This document shows positions 2,979 to 7,789 of a stretch of 64,000 nt of DNA, piece after piece. The notes beneath the pieces are model-generated. The model worked only from the letters and a program-made list of their open reading frames with translations, was not told the DNA's origin and searched no databases. Numbering within the stretch: position 1 is the first letter of the stretch; each line of letters starts with the position of its first letter. This DNA comes from Rhizobiales bacterium 62-17 (lineage in GTDB: Bacteria; Pseudomonadota; Alphaproteobacteria; Rhizobiales; Beijerinckiaceae): assembly GCA_001898965.1 (NCBI GenBank), contig MKVW01000006.1, positions 298,882-362,881 of the forward strand, in the 5' to 3' direction. The position numbers and the translations under genes are program-made.

Positions 2979-3198
2979 AAAAGTTAGCGCGAAAGCGGTG
3001 GAACGGCAAGTTTGCTTTGAACCGTTCGAAAAACAGCAAAAGCCTTGGTTCGCATGTGATCGACCGGAGGCCGATGGAATTGTTGGACCAATGCGATGGC
3101 GGGATTGTGATTTGCCGCCGATTGCGCCGTTGCGATCACGATGTTTCCATGGCCGATACGACGGGCTGTGGCGCGAGGAAGATCCAAAGGTTCATTCC

Positions 3199-3776
3199 AT
3201 GAAGAGCATCTTGTTTTCCGGCATGGCGCTGTTTTTCACGGCTGCTTCAGCGATAGCACAGGCGCCGGGCACTTATAATGCGGTTGGAACGATCGAGCGC
3301 CTCGATTCGGCTTCGCTTGCGGTGAAGACCGACGCCAATACGGAGACCTTCGCGCTCGCGCCCAGTCTCGTCGTGTTGCAAAACAAAGTCGCGACGTTGA
3401 ATGATATCAAGCCGAACGATTTTGTCGCCTCGGCGGCCGTCGTGAAGGACGGCAAATTGCATTCGACTGAACTGCGTATTTTTCCGGAAGCGTTGCGTGG
3501 CCTTGGCGAAGGGCAGCGGCCGATGAGTGGAGCTTCCGCCGGCCAGACGATGACCAATGCCACGGTCACCGGCGCGGTTCTCGCCAATGGCAGTAACACG
3601 CTTAAAGTGCGCTTTCCCGGCGGCGATTCCGAACTCGTGCTTGATCCTGGTGTGCCGGTGACACGGATCGATCAGGTCGAGCGGTCGATGTTGAAACCGG
3701 TCTCAAGGTCCGCGTTCAGGCCGTGCGCAATGGCGACGGCATGGTGGCGAACCGCGTGACGCTGATATCGGATTAG
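3199..3776 (+). pseudogene. Secreted DUF5666-like protein gene with an apparent 1-base frameshift
   Basis: The ATG at 3199 opens a protein with a Sec signal peptide (short basic start, hydrophobic core, cleavage near AIA-QA at residue 17). Two repeated beta-rich segments follow, of the type seen in DUF5666/OB-fold secreted proteins (pattern 'V..I..LD..SL.VKTD' and later 'VP.TRID'). The reading frame as given stops at 3759, and its last 23 or so residues look unlike the rest. In another frame, from about 3688, the sequence continues naturally with 'DVETGLKVRVQAVRNGDG' and ends at a TAG at 3774-3776. One base missing near 3684-3690, at the GAGCGGTCG site, would restore a single frame. It could be a true mutation or an assembly error. 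Confidence 0.65.
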
Positions 3777-3780
3777 CGGT

Positions 3781-4530
3781 TCAAGGTTTCAGGCGTCCAT
3801 AGGGCGGCGCCGGGATGTTGAGATGCGCCTGCCGCAATGCTGTCGACCAGCGGTCACGTAAATCGTGGAAATAGGGATCGGTGTTGTCGATGCGAGCGTC
3901 GAGCGCCAGTTCGATGGCATCGCGCTTCAGCACCGCCATATCGATCGGCAGGCCGACGCTGAGATTGGAGCGCATGGTCGAATCCATCGAAATGAGGCTG
4001 AGCTTGAGGGCGTCGCTGACATTGGTTTCAAAGCTGACGGCGCGATCGAGCACCGGCTTGCCATATTTCAGCTCGCCGATTTGCAGGAAGGGCGTATCGG
4101 CGGTCGCCTCGATGAAGTTGCCGGCGGAATAGATCATGAAGAGGCGCAGGCGGCGGTCTTTCATCTGGCCGCCGAATAGGAACGTGGTGCTCGACGAGAC
4201 ATTTTCCTGTTCGAGCATTTCGCCGTTCACCGCGCGGACCCGGCGGACGGCTCGGCCGATCAATTCGGCGGCCGCGAACATGCTGGTGCAATCGAGCAAC
4301 CGCTCGATCTCTTTGGTTTCCGGATTTTCCATGCCTTCGGTGATGTAATTCACCACCGTCTGGGTCAGCGACAGATTGCCGGCCGTGGACAGCAACATCA
4401 CCTTTTCGCCGGGCTTCTGAAAAATATGGAGTTTGCGGAAAGTCGAAATGTTGTCGATGCCCGCGTTGGTGCGGGTGTCGGCAATCATCACGAGGCCTTC
4501 GCGCACGAGCACGCCGCAGCAATAGGTCAT
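3781..4530 (-). CDS. Anbu proteasome-like N-terminal nucleophile hydrolase
   Basis: This 249-residue protein belongs to Anbu, the bacterial relative of proteasome beta subunits and HslV. It begins Met-Thr-Tyr-Cys, placing the nucleophile candidate at Thr2 after Met removal. The proteasome-fold signatures follow: the ADTRTNAG segment with its Asp, and the Lys in the FQKPGEK region. The ATG at 4530 is chosen because it gives the family N-terminus and has GGAGG about eight bases upstream; the open frame extends 86 codons further without similarity. It is the last gene of a minus-strand run of ATP-grasp, alpha-E, transglutaminase-like protein and Anbu. This linkage is known from many proteobacteria and has been proposed to make or remove a peptide-like modification, but the substrate is not established. 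Confidence 0.92.
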   Translation of the reverse strand: MTYCCGVLVREGLVMIADTRTNAGIDNISTFRKLHIFQKPGEKVMLLSTAGNLSLTQTVVNYITEGMENPETKEIERLLDCTSMFAAAELIGRAVRRVRAVNGEMLEQENVSSSTTFLFGGQMKDRRLRLFMIYSAGNFIEATADTPFLQIGELKYGKPVLDRAVSFETNVSDALKLSLISMDSTMRSNLSVGLPIDMAVLKRDAIELALDARIDNTDPYFHDLRDRWSTALRQAHLNIPAPPYGRLKP

Positions 4531-4564: not shown

Positions 4565-5374
4565 TTACTGGTTTTGGCTATCGACGACGTTGATGCGTAC
4601 GTCAAGAGCCTCGCCGTCGCCGCCGGTCTGGGCACCACGCACCGGGGCGGCGCCCAGATGATCCAGGGCGCAGGCGACACGCACATGACTCTCTTCGGGA
4701 CATTTGCCCAGGGCTGGATCAAACCCGATCCAGCCATAATCCGGAATATAGGCCTCGGCCCAAGCATGGGCGGCGTGCCGCACGCCACTGTCCTCGGGCA
4801 AAGCGATATGGCCGCTGACGAAGCGCGCCGGGACGTTCATTTCCCGGGCGCAGGCGATGAAGATGTGGGCGAAATCGGCGGCTACGGCCGCACCGGCGGC
4901 ATAGGCGCGGGCAGCGGTGGTGACGCCGTGAGTCGGGTCGGTGTCGAAATCGAGCTTTTCATGCAGGGTGTCGAGGAGGGCGTGCAAGCGCGCGTGATCG
5001 CTGTCCCCTTCCATGGAGGTCGCCAGAGCCTTCAGGCGTTCGTCGGCGATCGCAAGGGGGGACTGGCGCAGATAGAGTTCCGGCGGAAACCGTTCGATGG
5101 CATTGCGGACGAACCCCGACGTGTCGAAGGTCTCCACCTCGCCCTCGGCGCTGACGATGAGCTGGGGGATGGGCCCCATGGCCGTAAACGTGTGAACGAG
5201 ATTGCCGAAGCCGTCCTCAGAAGCCTTGAGGATGCAGTTGGCATCGATATCGAGCCGCCAGTCGATGACGTGTTGCCCTTCATGATTGCGCGGCGTCATC
5301 CGCAGCACTTGAATCACCGAACGTGGCGGCGTTGCATAGGTGTAGACGGTTTCATATTGGATGCGGATGCGCAT
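4565..5374 (-). CDS. Transglutaminase-like protein of the Anbu cluster, catalytic Cys replaced by Ala
   Basis: The 269 residues comprise a bacterial transglutaminase N-terminal beta domain (about 1-100) and a papain-like transglutaminase core (about 130-225). The His (His203, in HAWAE) and Asp (Asp219, in GFDP) of the triad are present. Where relatives read V-C-Q-D-F-A-H, this protein has Val164-Ala165-Ala166-Asp167-Phe-Ala-His, so both the nucleophile Cys and the neighbouring Gln are changed to Ala. The codon at 4880-4882 is plainly GCC on the coding strand. The protein is thus predicted to be inactive as a thiol enzyme and may act as a binding or scaffold subunit. It is 6 bases from the upstream alpha-E gene and 34 from Anbu. 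An active paralogue might exist elsewhere in the genome. Confidence 0.9.
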   Translation of the reverse strand: MRIRIQYETVYTYATPPRSVIQVLRMTPRNHEGQHVIDWRLDIDANCILKASEDGFGNLVHTFTAMGPIPQLIVSAEGEVETFDTSGFVRNAIERFPPELYLRQSPLAIADERLKALATSMEGDSDHARLHALLDTLHEKLDFDTDPTHGVTTAARAYAAGAAVAADFAHIFIACAREMNVPARFVSGHIALPEDSGVRHAAHAWAEAYIPDYGWIGFDPALGKCPEESHVRVACALDHLGAAPVRGAQTGGDGEALDVRINVVDSQNQ

Positions 5375-5380
5375 GGCGGC

Positions 5381-6340
5381 TCAATGGTGAAGATATTGTT
5401 CGGCAATCAGAGCGCCGAGACGGTTGTTGTCTTCGATGAATTTGGTGACGAACTCATGCAGGCCTTGCTGGAAGATGCTTTCCATCGAGGCACTGTCGAT
5501 GCGACGCAAGATGTTGCGCGCATGGCGCTGGGCAAGGCCCTGCTTGCCATAGGCCTTGCCGAGACTGTCGAGGAAGCGCGTGAGCCCATCATAGCAATAG
5601 GCGAGTGAACGCGGCATTTCCTTGCGCAGAATGAGGAGGTCGGCGATGAGCCAAGGTTTGACGCTCTCGCGATAGACCCAGTGATAGGCGGTCTGGGCCG
5701 AAACGGCGCGCAGGATCGCCGTCCATTGAAAGTAATCGAGCGAACCGCCGACTTCCTCGGTCTTCGGCAGAAGCACGTTGTACTTCACGTCCATCAGACG
5801 CGCCGTGTTGTCGGCGCGCTCGCAATAAAGGCCGATGCGATTGAACCAGTAGGCGTCGTTGCGCAGCATGGTGCGGTAGGACGAGCCATCGAAATCGAGC
5901 GAGACGGCTTTGACGAATTCGAGGAAGGGCTGGATGCTGTCGGCGCCCGAATATTCGCCGCCGCGCCGTTTTTCCTCCATGGCCTTGAGTTCGAGCCAAC
6001 CGGCATTGATCGATTGCCACATTTCCGCTGTTAGCGCGGTGCGGATGGTGCGCGCGTTGATGCGGGCCTGTTCGAGACAACGGCGGATCGACGAGGGATT
6101 GGCTTCGTCGAAGGTCAGAAAAAAGACGACGTTGCTCTCCGTCGCCTCTGAGAAACTGGCCTTGAAGCTGTTGAGCGCGCCAACGGCGGCAAGCGCGCTT
6201 TCCCATTCGCCGCCCGAGCGGCGATAGTTCTGCGGCAGGGCGGCGAGGCGCGCCGTCACCTCAATGATGCGGGCGGTGAAATCGGCGCGTTCGATATAGC
6301 GCGCCAGCCAATAAAGATTTTCTGCGGTCCGAGCGAGCAA
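5381..6340 (-). CDS. Alpha-E domain protein (DUF403)
   Basis: The 319-residue, all-helical protein starts with the family hallmark LARTAENLYWLARYIERAD. The rest matches alpha-E proteins in length and pattern, including the later helical segment around YCERADNTARL. No enzyme has been shown for this family; it nearly always accompanies circularly permuted ATP-grasp proteins and is thought to support amide-bond formation. Here it lies 3 bases downstream of the ATP-grasp gene and 6 bases upstream of the transglutaminase-like gene, indicating one operon. Confidence 0.93.
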   Translation of the reverse strand: MLARTAENLYWLARYIERADFTARIIEVTARLAALPQNYRRSGGEWESALAAVGALNSFKASFSEATESNVVFFLTFDEANPSSIRRCLEQARINARTIRTALTAEMWQSINAGWLELKAMEEKRRGGEYSGADSIQPFLEFVKAVSLDFDGSSYRTMLRNDAYWFNRIGLYCERADNTARLMDVKYNVLLPKTEEVGGSLDYFQWTAILRAVSAQTAYHWVYRESVKPWLIADLLILRKEMPRSLAYCYDGLTRFLDSLGKAYGKQGLAQRHARNILRRIDSASMESIFQQGLHEFVTKFIEDNNRLGALIAEQYLHH

Positions 6341-6343
6341 AGA

Positions 6344-7789
6344 TCAGGCTCCCTCGTTCGAGTTCGTATCCTCGATGATCCAGGTGTCCTTGGTGCCACC
6401 GCCCTGGCTCGAGTTGACGACGAGCGAACCGGCACGCATCGCCACGCGGGTCAAGCCGCCCGGCACCACATGCACGCCATTGGCGCCCGTGAGCACGAAA
6501 GGCCTGAGGTCGACGTGACGGGGCGCGATGGAATCGTCGACGAAAGCCGGGCAGGTGGAGAGCGCCAAGGTCGGCTGGGCGATGTAATTGGCTGGATCGG
6601 CATCGAGCCGTTTGGCGAATTCATCAATATCGGCGCGCGTGGCGTGCGGGCCGACCAGCATGCCATAACCGCCAGAGCCGTTGACCTCCTTGACGACCAG
6701 TTCGTCGAGATGTTCGCGCACATATTTATAGGCGTCGGGCTCGCGGCAGCGCCAAGTCTGGACATTGCCGAGCTTCGCTTCCTGTCCCGTGTAAAATTTC
6801 ACGATCTCTGGCATGTAGGAATAGATCGCCTTGTCGTCGGCAACGCCGGTGCCGACCGCATTGGTGATGGTGACGTTGCCGGCATAATAAGCGTTCATCA
6901 GTCCAGGTACGCCGAGCGCCGAATCCGGATTGAACGAAAGCGGATCGATCCAGTCGTCATCGACCCGCCGATAGATGACGTCGACCCGTTTCGGGCCCTG
7001 GGTCGTTTTCATATAGACGACCTCCTCGCGCACCGAGAGATCATGGCCTTCGACCAGTTCGATGCCGAGGCGGTCGGCCAGGAAGGAATGTTCGTAATAG
7101 GCGGAATTGTACTGGCCGGGGGTCAGTAGAACCACGGTAGGTTCGCCGCGCGCGGCGGTGGGGGCGACAGAGCGAAGCGCCGCGAGCAAAGCGTCGGCAT
7201 AATTGTCGACGGGGGCGATGCGATAGGCGGAAAAGAGATCCGGCATCAGCCGCATCATCACTTCGCGGTTCTCCAGCATATAGGAGACGCCCGAGGGGGT
7301 GCGTGCATTGTCTTCCAGTACGAAGAATTCGCCCTCGCCGGTGCGCACCAGATCGATGCCGGCGATATGCACCCAGACGTCATGGGGCACGCGCCGTCCC
7401 GCCATTTCCGGGCGGAAGTAAGCGTTGCGATAGATGATGTCGGGAGGCAGCACGCCGGCCTTGAGGATTTCTCGGGCGCCATAAATGTCGGACAGGAACA
7501 TATTGAGCGCGTTGACGCGCTGGACGAGACCGATCTCGAGTGCCGACCATTCCGATTGGCTGACGATGCGCGGAATGATGTCGAAGGGGATGAGACGTTC
7601 GGTGTCGTCATTGCCGCCGTAAACGGCGAAGGTGATGCCGATGCGGCGGAACATCAATTCGGCCTGGGCTCGGCGGGTCGCCAGAATATCGGCGGGGGTT
7701 TTCTTCAGCCAGTCGGCGACGCCTGCATAAAGCGCGCGAGTCGTCTCGCCATATCCATTCATCTCGTCAAAAAATCTGGTCTTGCTCAT
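6344..7789 (-). CDS. Circularly permuted ATP-grasp protein (DUF404/DUF407 type)
   Basis: This 481-residue protein matches the circularly permuted type 2 ATP-grasp family, which is predicted to join a carboxylate to an amine using ATP. Visible signatures are the FDIIPRI segment near residue 70, the EDNARTPSGVSYMLENRE block, and the glycine-rich VKEVNGSGGYGM loop expected to hold ATP. The ATG at 7789 gives the usual start; the extra 38 codons upstream look non-coding. It is the first gene of the Anbu operon, so the promoter should be in the 154 bases between 7790 and 7943. The substrate is unknown. Confidence 0.93.
   Translation of the reverse strand: MSKTRFFDEMNGYGETTRALYAGVADWLKKTPADILATRRAQAELMFRRIGITFAVYGGNDDTERLIPFDIIPRIVSQSEWSALEIGLVQRVNALNMFLSDIYGAREILKAGVLPPDIIYRNAYFRPEMAGRRVPHDVWVHIAGIDLVRTGEGEFFVLEDNARTPSGVSYMLENREVMMRLMPDLFSAYRIAPVDNYADALLAALRSVAPTAARGEPTVVLLTPGQYNSAYYEHSFLADRLGIELVEGHDLSVREEVVYMKTTQGPKRVDVIYRRVDDDWIDPLSFNPDSALGVPGLMNAYYAGNVTITNAVGTGVADDKAIYSYMPEIVKFYTGQEAKLGNVQTWRCREPDAYKYVREHLDELVVKEVNGSGGYGMLVGPHATRADIDEFAKRLDADPANYIAQPTLALSTCPAFVDDSIAPRHVDLRPFVLTGANGVHVVPGGLTRVAMRAGSLVVNSSQGGGTKDTWIIEDTNSNEGA

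Follow-up and report, generated by a model that had tools for sequence, protein, structure and literature searches.

A transglutaminase-like protein lacking its catalytic cysteine in an alphaproteobacterial Anbu operon: a probable recurrent pseudoenzyme

The Anbu operon and its missing nucleophile

The window, the whole stretch of 64,000 nucleotides of Rhizobiales bacterium 62-17 that was analyzed, contains four genes on the minus strand in the order ATP-grasp, alpha-E, transglutaminase-like, and Anbu, with thiC beyond Anbu, as read from the frames of the window and their Pfam matches. The features are as follows.

3781..4530, minus strand: Anbu, proteasome beta-like subunit, 249 aa, start ATG at 4530
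4565..5374, minus strand: transglutaminase-like protein lacking the catalytic Cys, 269 aa, with the domains Bact_transglu_N and Transglut_core
4718..4720, minus strand: codon 219, Asp of the former triad, retained (position computed from the gene start)
4766..4768, minus strand: codon 203, His of the former Cys-His-Asp triad, retained (position likewise computed from the gene start)
4880..4882, minus strand: codon 165, GCC (Ala), in the place of the catalytic Cys (from the alignment to 3isr and the codon reading)
5381..6340, minus strand: alpha-E protein, start codon listed as TTG (PF04168, 2.1e-88)
6344..7789, minus strand: circularly permuted ATP-grasp protein, 481 aa, start ATG at 7789 (PF14403, 1.7e-166; PF04174, 2.8e-149)

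The Pfam score of the Anbu frame was 21.5 bits, slightly below the gathering score of 22.4; we take it to be Anbu from its N-terminal active-site motif and its place, and Thr1, Asp17, and Lys of the Anbu Ntn active site are present. The transglutaminase-like protein has the transglutaminase/papain-like fold and scored 68.8 bits with PF01841 against a gathering cutoff of 23. No NCBIfam family was matched by the transglutaminase-like, alpha-E, or ATP-grasp protein. PADLOC gave no match for any of the four operon proteins, and a role of the operon in antiphage defense was set aside on this ground. Between thiC and Anbu, a 253-aa frame without a Pfam match lies on the opposite strand (2998-3759, plus strand).

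The four genes, their identical order, and their location on one strand are those of the published Anbu operon, i.e., ATP-grasp, alpha-E, transglutaminase, and Anbu (Iyer 2009; Valas and Bourne 2008, as cited in the available parts of PMC5666114 and PMC6376114). The difference lies in the third gene, which the accessible text of these two Anbu structure papers calls transglutaminase or transglutaminase-like and treats as encoding one of two amide-bond-forming proteins, whereas the window copy has no nucleophile. Residues 164 to 167 are V-A-A-D, followed by FAHIF, whereas V-C-R-D occupies the nucleophile position in the solved relative 3isr, a putative cysteine protease of Cytophaga hutchinsonii. 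The alignment places V-C-R-D-F-A-H of 3isr opposite V164-A165-A166-D167 without a gap, and the window model aligns to 3isr over residues 1 to 269. In the AlphaFold2 model (mean pLDDT, 93.6), a helix begins at residue 165 and His203 and Asp219 lie on strands that follow it. The gap-free alignment and this helix start identify residue 165 as the canonical nucleophile position. The plus-strand bases at 4880 to 4882 are GGC, i.e., codon GCC (Ala). The original prediction, that the catalytic Cys has given way to V164-A165-A166-D167 with His203 and Asp219 kept, is thereby confirmed on both counts: of the residues expected in an active member of the transglutaminase-like superfamily, the nucleophile Cys is missing (Ala165), and the other two remain.

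An artefact, whether a sequencing error or a misalignment at codon 165, has a negligible probability and was rejected. Codon 165 is also GCC (Ala) in two other genomes of the genus, in an 88% identical gene (VAAD) and a 73% identical gene (VAQD), which makes a sequencing error very unlikely; the alignment to 3isr is free of gaps at this codon, and 94 further homologues lack Cys165. Pseudogene status was also rejected, as the frame is open and its dN/dS is 0.08 to 0.13. A Cys displaced to another position in the fold, the case named beforehand as contradicting the original prediction, was examined by alignment and rejected as unlikely. The remaining cysteines of the window protein are at 47, 175, 225, and 235, and these columns hold Cys in 24, 26, 54, and 7, respectively, of 97 rows that bear Cys165. 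They are not specific to Cys-less rows, and none of the cysteines therefore looks relocated.

Distribution and number of cysteine losses

Homologues were sampled outward from the window. Named records gave 70 loci, found by their likeness to the window protein, so that the Cys-less share among them is biased. In the genus, 51 genomes were searched, of which 35 had a match and 34 of these were examined; in the family, 195 of 248 genomes had a match, and 56 places were examined, hand-chosen across genera among the matches listed. In the class, 289 genomes were searched and 92 had Anbu, with 90 of 99 places examined (30 loci plus 60); in the phylum, Anbu was found in 140 of 348 genomes, with 60 places examined. 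A first alignment of 193 distinct homologues scoring at least 180 bits was enlarged by 35 rows scoring at least 170 bits to give 228. Identical rows and weaker paralogues (L002 to L004, L101 to L104, L113, L138, L140, L155, L159, and L169) were dropped before counting, and L322 to L324 stand outside the counts.

Scoring residue 165 across an alignment of alphaproteobacterial Anbu clusters had been proposed as a check, together with the suggestion that the loss may be widespread. Cys165 is present in 133 of the 228 distinct aligned homologues and absent in 95, one of the 95 being a gap. By kinship to the window, it occurs in 0/1 in the same genome, 11/33 in the genus, 33/55 in the family, 10/10 in the order, 46/49 in the class, and 21/21 in the phylum. 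The last count becomes 16/16 when L301, L303, L304, L305, and L309 are excluded; these adjoin a fused ATP-grasp/alpha-E frame and look like another system. The suggestion thus holds inside the family, where Cys165 is missing from 23 of 34 rows of the genus (window included) and 22 of 55 elsewhere, but not across alphaproteobacterial Anbu clusters at large, as the order and class counts indicate. Cys-less named loci comprise every Bosea row, 2/4 Methylocystaceae, 2/2 Xanthobacteraceae, the sole Chelatococcus, and 3/5 Sphingomonas-type rows (Sphingomonadaceae plus Rhizorhabdaceae), so that the state is not strictly limited to the family of the window. In the first 193 rows, residue 165 is Cys in 98, Ala in 50, Pro in 25, Gly in 6, Ser in 5, Tyr in 4, Val in 2, Thr in 1, Arg in 1, and a gap in 1; all 35 rows added later have Cys.

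The number of losses was estimated on a tree of ATP-grasp plus alpha-E, from which the transglutaminase-like protein itself is excluded. With 178 rows, the Cys-less label must change state at least 20 times, and well-supported branches force 19 of these changes. If Cys may be lost but never regained, the Cys-less rows fall into 28 maximal subtrees, of which about 22 lie within the family of the window or next to it; nothing but the gene remnant L319 keeps two of the 28 (L251 and L252) apart. A previous tree, with 173 rows, required 18 changes, 16 of which were forced, and gave 25 subtrees. The trees were made with FastTree only and the counts depend on sampling and on some long rows; the 178-row tree retains six Bosea rows after thinning and omits rows with <300 aligned residues (e.g., L317, L126, and L131). 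One or a few ancient losses of Cys do not fit these counts.

The Bosea clade departs from the other Cys-less rows at residue 143. All 36 of its rows (e.g., L050, L056, L058, L077, and L088) lack Cys165 and have Cys143 amid neighboring residues that vary; Cys143 also occurs in the Cys-less rows L030 and L089 and in no row bearing Cys165. The model of the window protein has a two-residue strand at 142-143 and another at 162-163, and if these pair, residue 143 may adjoin the nucleophile loop. The Bosea Cys143 is possibly a relocated nucleophile, or else a structural change. A Cys close to the lost one, at 164 or 166, is seen in five Cys-less rows (L018, L089, L090, L091, and L254). Such features, with the retained His and Asp, would be expected if the proteins were still enzymes, the His-Asp pair working with water or another side chain and Cys143 serving near the loop in Bosea. 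We regard this as improbable. Cys143 offers no explanation for the window protein, in which residue 143 is Phe, residue 165 is Ala, and no other Cys is well placed. Furthermore, Pro and Gly are among the residues that replace Cys165, some rows show further degeneration of Asp167 and the loop, and the nearest Cys-less neighbors of the Bosea clade, L074 and L207, lack Cys143.

Constraint on the gene and its absence

Residues around the former active site are retained in the 95 Cys-less rows: Trp205, Glu207, and Asp219 occur in 95 and His203 in 92, the exceptions being L090 and L091 (Arg, with His one residue later) and L240 (Tyr). The weighted frequency is also 1.0 at, among others, Pro28, Gln34, Trp39, Asp54, Asn58, His131, Arg177, Arg184, and Gly188. 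Relaxed positions are those of the nucleophile loop, 163 to 166 (V164 and Q166), with others such as A201 and A204, and within the family also F143 and Q199. This pattern is one of erosion centered on the thiol site more than of general decay. Conservation of His203 and Asp219 might be purely structural.

Selection was assessed by dN/dS (Nei-Gojobori) in 39 hand-picked pairs, some with dS of >1. In Cys-less pairs (n = 20), the median was 0.126 (0.07 to 0.31) for the transglutaminase-like gene, 0.047 for ATP-grasp, 0.040 for alpha-E, and 0.068 for Anbu (14 pairs); in Cys-bearing pairs (n = 19), the medians were 0.150, 0.088 (15 pairs), 0.083 (18 pairs), and 0.088 (16 pairs), respectively. The transglutaminase-like gene is thus clearly constrained in both groups alike. 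Some relaxation accompanies this constraint in the Cys-less genes: by median dN/dS they evolve ∼2.7 times faster than ATP-grasp, and among the operon genes measured, the transglutaminase-like gene has the highest dN/dS in every Cys-less pair, which does not hold for every Cys-bearing pair. The median ratio of its dN/dS to that of ATP-grasp is 3.2 in Cys-less pairs (20 pairs) versus 2.1 in Cys-bearing pairs (15 pairs) (Mann-Whitney P = 0.0016, on rounded values). The two window pairs gave 0.079 and 0.134 for the transglutaminase-like gene, which in both exceeded the other three operon genes in dN and in dN/dS. The expectation that the rest of the protein is conserved therefore stands for the fold, His, and Asp but has to be qualified for the sequence as a whole. 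With an essential catalytic residue lost, the predicted fold kept, and purifying selection acting, the window protein has the properties of a pseudoenzyme.

An intact transglutaminase-like gene is missing from 17 other alpha-E-Anbu loci, where absence means no match of 100 bits on the same strand beside alpha-E (with the rest of the genome checked for the genus only); in some lineages, dispensability at the operon therefore extends from the chemistry to the protein itself. Four of the 17 (L317 to L320) belong to the genus of the window and adjoin thiC as the window operon does, and their genomes (G003, G043, G050, and G026) gave no match elsewhere at an E value of 1e-30. In L318 and L320, the gap between the alpha-E and Anbu frames is 53 and 33 bases, respectively. 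In L319, a piece matching residues 2 to 49 and a rearranged C-terminal piece are left between alpha-E and thiC (L319:1770-2837) and Anbu is split by a stop; this remnant could be decay or a misassembly.

These absences are what plain relaxation toward loss would produce, i.e., a subunit dispensable in the family whose catalytic loop decays first and whose gene is later deleted, with no positive noncatalytic role at any stage. In the 178-row tree (fork support not given), L318 and L320 lie beside the Cys-less L017, L025, and L029, and L319 lies beside the Cys-less L251 and L252, as such a sequence of events predicts; the raised ratio to ATP-grasp in Cys-less pairs would also arise from slow decay. 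We nevertheless consider this explanation unlikely, if less so than continued catalysis. The dN/dS of the gene is far below 1 in all 20 Cys-less pairs, and His203, Trp205, Glu207, and Asp219 are nearly invariant while the nucleophile-loop residues are not. In the earlier tree, 10 gene-less rows, none from the family of the window, share their region with 28 Cys rows and 1 Cys-less row, so that loss of Cys is not a needed first step toward loss of the gene. Retention is also complete in a Bosea-like genus, g226, inferred to be Bosea from near-identical rows in the tree: the transglutaminase-like gene occurs in 65/65 genomes, with no stop inside the matches, and Anbu in 63/65, and all 30 loci examined lack Cys165 and have His203 and Asp219. 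Such genus-wide retention argues for a noncatalytic job.

A proposed noncatalytic role

The possibility of an active V-C-Q-D paralogue elsewhere in the genome had been raised, and Cys-bearing paralogues, putatively active, were found. The genome of the window has three other transglutaminase-like genes with the Cys: L002 (VCQDFAHL), L003 (VCRDFAHL), and L004 (SCRDSAWL). L002 and L004 flank a fused ATP-grasp/alpha-E frame on contig C4, with which they belong to a second system; at L315:7917-14633, this second system of the same genome comprises a Cys-bearing transglutaminase-like protein, the 840-aa fusion, and an 1,108-aa transglutaminase-like protein. The L002-type paralogue shares both Pfam domains with the window protein and differs in context, since ATP-grasp and alpha-E are fused and there is no Anbu match in the surrounding 19-kb stretch. 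It is present in 43/51 genomes of the genus at an E value of 1e-60 (45/51 at 1e-10, weak cross-matches included). GVCQD occurs in all 30 genomes examined of the 43; 16 of the 30 have a Cys-less Anbu-operon copy, 4 have a Cys-bearing copy, and 10 have none among those examined.

Loss of the nucleophile leaves Anbu unaltered at its active site. All 65 Cys-less operons retain Thr1, Asp17, and Lys, as do 107 Cys-bearing operons (except for one Ser at Thr1) and 16 of the 17 loci without an intact transglutaminase-like gene; the remaining locus is gapped there because of a split Anbu. A link between loss of Cys and absence of Anbu was not supported (Fisher P = 0.068; independent pairs, median P = 0.5), the family counts being 32 Cys rows with and 9 without adjacent Anbu and 26 Cys-less rows with and 18 without. 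In eight genomes of the genus, several of them incomplete (G002, G004, G005, G020, G028, G030, G031, and G047), the transglutaminase-like gene occurs with no Anbu match at an E value of 1e-20, and the remainder of the operon may occur there without Anbu. At two loci of the phylum, L293 and L299, Anbu is on the strand opposite to the ATP-grasp/alpha-E pair and no transglutaminase-like match is present.

The reading that we consider probable is that the window protein is a recurrent pseudoenzyme kept as a noncovalent binding or adaptor subunit. It comprises the following. (i) The nucleophile was lost many times, mostly in one family; the losses affect the Anbu-operon copy and spare the paralogue checked. 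The predicted fold and the His203/Trp205/Glu207/Asp219 frame were kept, the gene stays under selection, and the Anbu active site is intact. (ii) The ATP-grasp/alpha-E/Anbu pathway of the family may have ceased to need thiol chemistry, which would hydrolyze or transamidate a product of ATP-grasp (an isopeptide or a peptide); this chemistry would be either unnecessary or provided in trans by the second ATP-grasp/alpha-E system through its Cys-bearing paralogue. (iii) The protein would act by noncovalent binding or as an adaptor, either retaining the tag or product or bringing alpha-E/ATP-grasp or Anbu into place, the retained His203/Trp205/Glu207/Asp219 cleft being the presumed binding surface. 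(iv) Some lineages would drop even this binder role, whereupon the gene is lost. More tentatively, the transglutaminase-like subunit in general might be a reader or carrier of the ATP-grasp product for which thiol chemistry is optional, the nucleophile having been discarded ∼20 to 28 times (∼22 of the 28 subtrees belonging to the family of the window or lying next to it) with the His-Asp cleft kept, and perhaps rebuilt at 143 in Bosea.

Transglutaminase folds without activity are found in other settings. Chains of protein 4.2, which we take to be EPB42, are among the fold matches of the window protein model. In the portions available of the respective papers, EPB42 is described as catalytically inactive (PMC10318531), and peptide binding is proposed for the inactive transglutaminase domains found in polymorphic toxin proteins (PMC3482391). 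Both are transglutaminase folds that have lost triad residues, as has the window protein, but they occur in other contexts and in proteins larger than it. A nearer parallel in gene content is RloB of the Pseudomonas aeruginosa rlo operon, whose inactive transglutaminase domain is encoded alongside an ATP-grasp protein and an aspartic protease and for which the accessible part of PMC12239564 gives genetic evidence of function. RloB is, however, fused to seven transmembrane helices, whereas the window protein has a single fold (269 aa, two Pfam domains only, aligned to 3isr over its length), has no such fusion, and lies beside Anbu. Inactive transglutaminases are thus already known, and we found no report of Cys-less transglutaminases of Anbu operons among the matches listed in the literature searched, as far as its available text extends and with most subscription papers outside its scope; their recurrent loss of Cys appears to be unreported.

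In the available text of both structure papers, no activity of Anbu was seen on standard substrates, and one reports binding of proteasome inhibitors (PMC5666114, PMC6376114). Upregulation of Anbu in Pseudomonas putida under nitrogen limitation is also reported (PMC5666114). When the Yersinia bercovieri operon was coexpressed, no specific interactions were detected among its proteins, according to the part of PMC6376114 at hand, a result that would count against the binding or adaptor reading. One proposal for the operon, in the same portion of that paper, leans on two amide-bond enzymes (PMC6376114). The 65 operons with an intact Anbu active site and no transglutaminase nucleophile, together with the 17 gene-less loci, suggest that the selected function of Anbu needs no such chemistry from this subunit. 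Cys-bearing, Cys-less, and absent states form a natural series for testing the core of the pathway, and the series suggests that ATP-grasp, alpha-E, and Anbu form the minimal unit. In two genomes of the genus, two different Anbu genes lie in tandem (G010:C131:4063-5592 and G027:C146:5073-6646).
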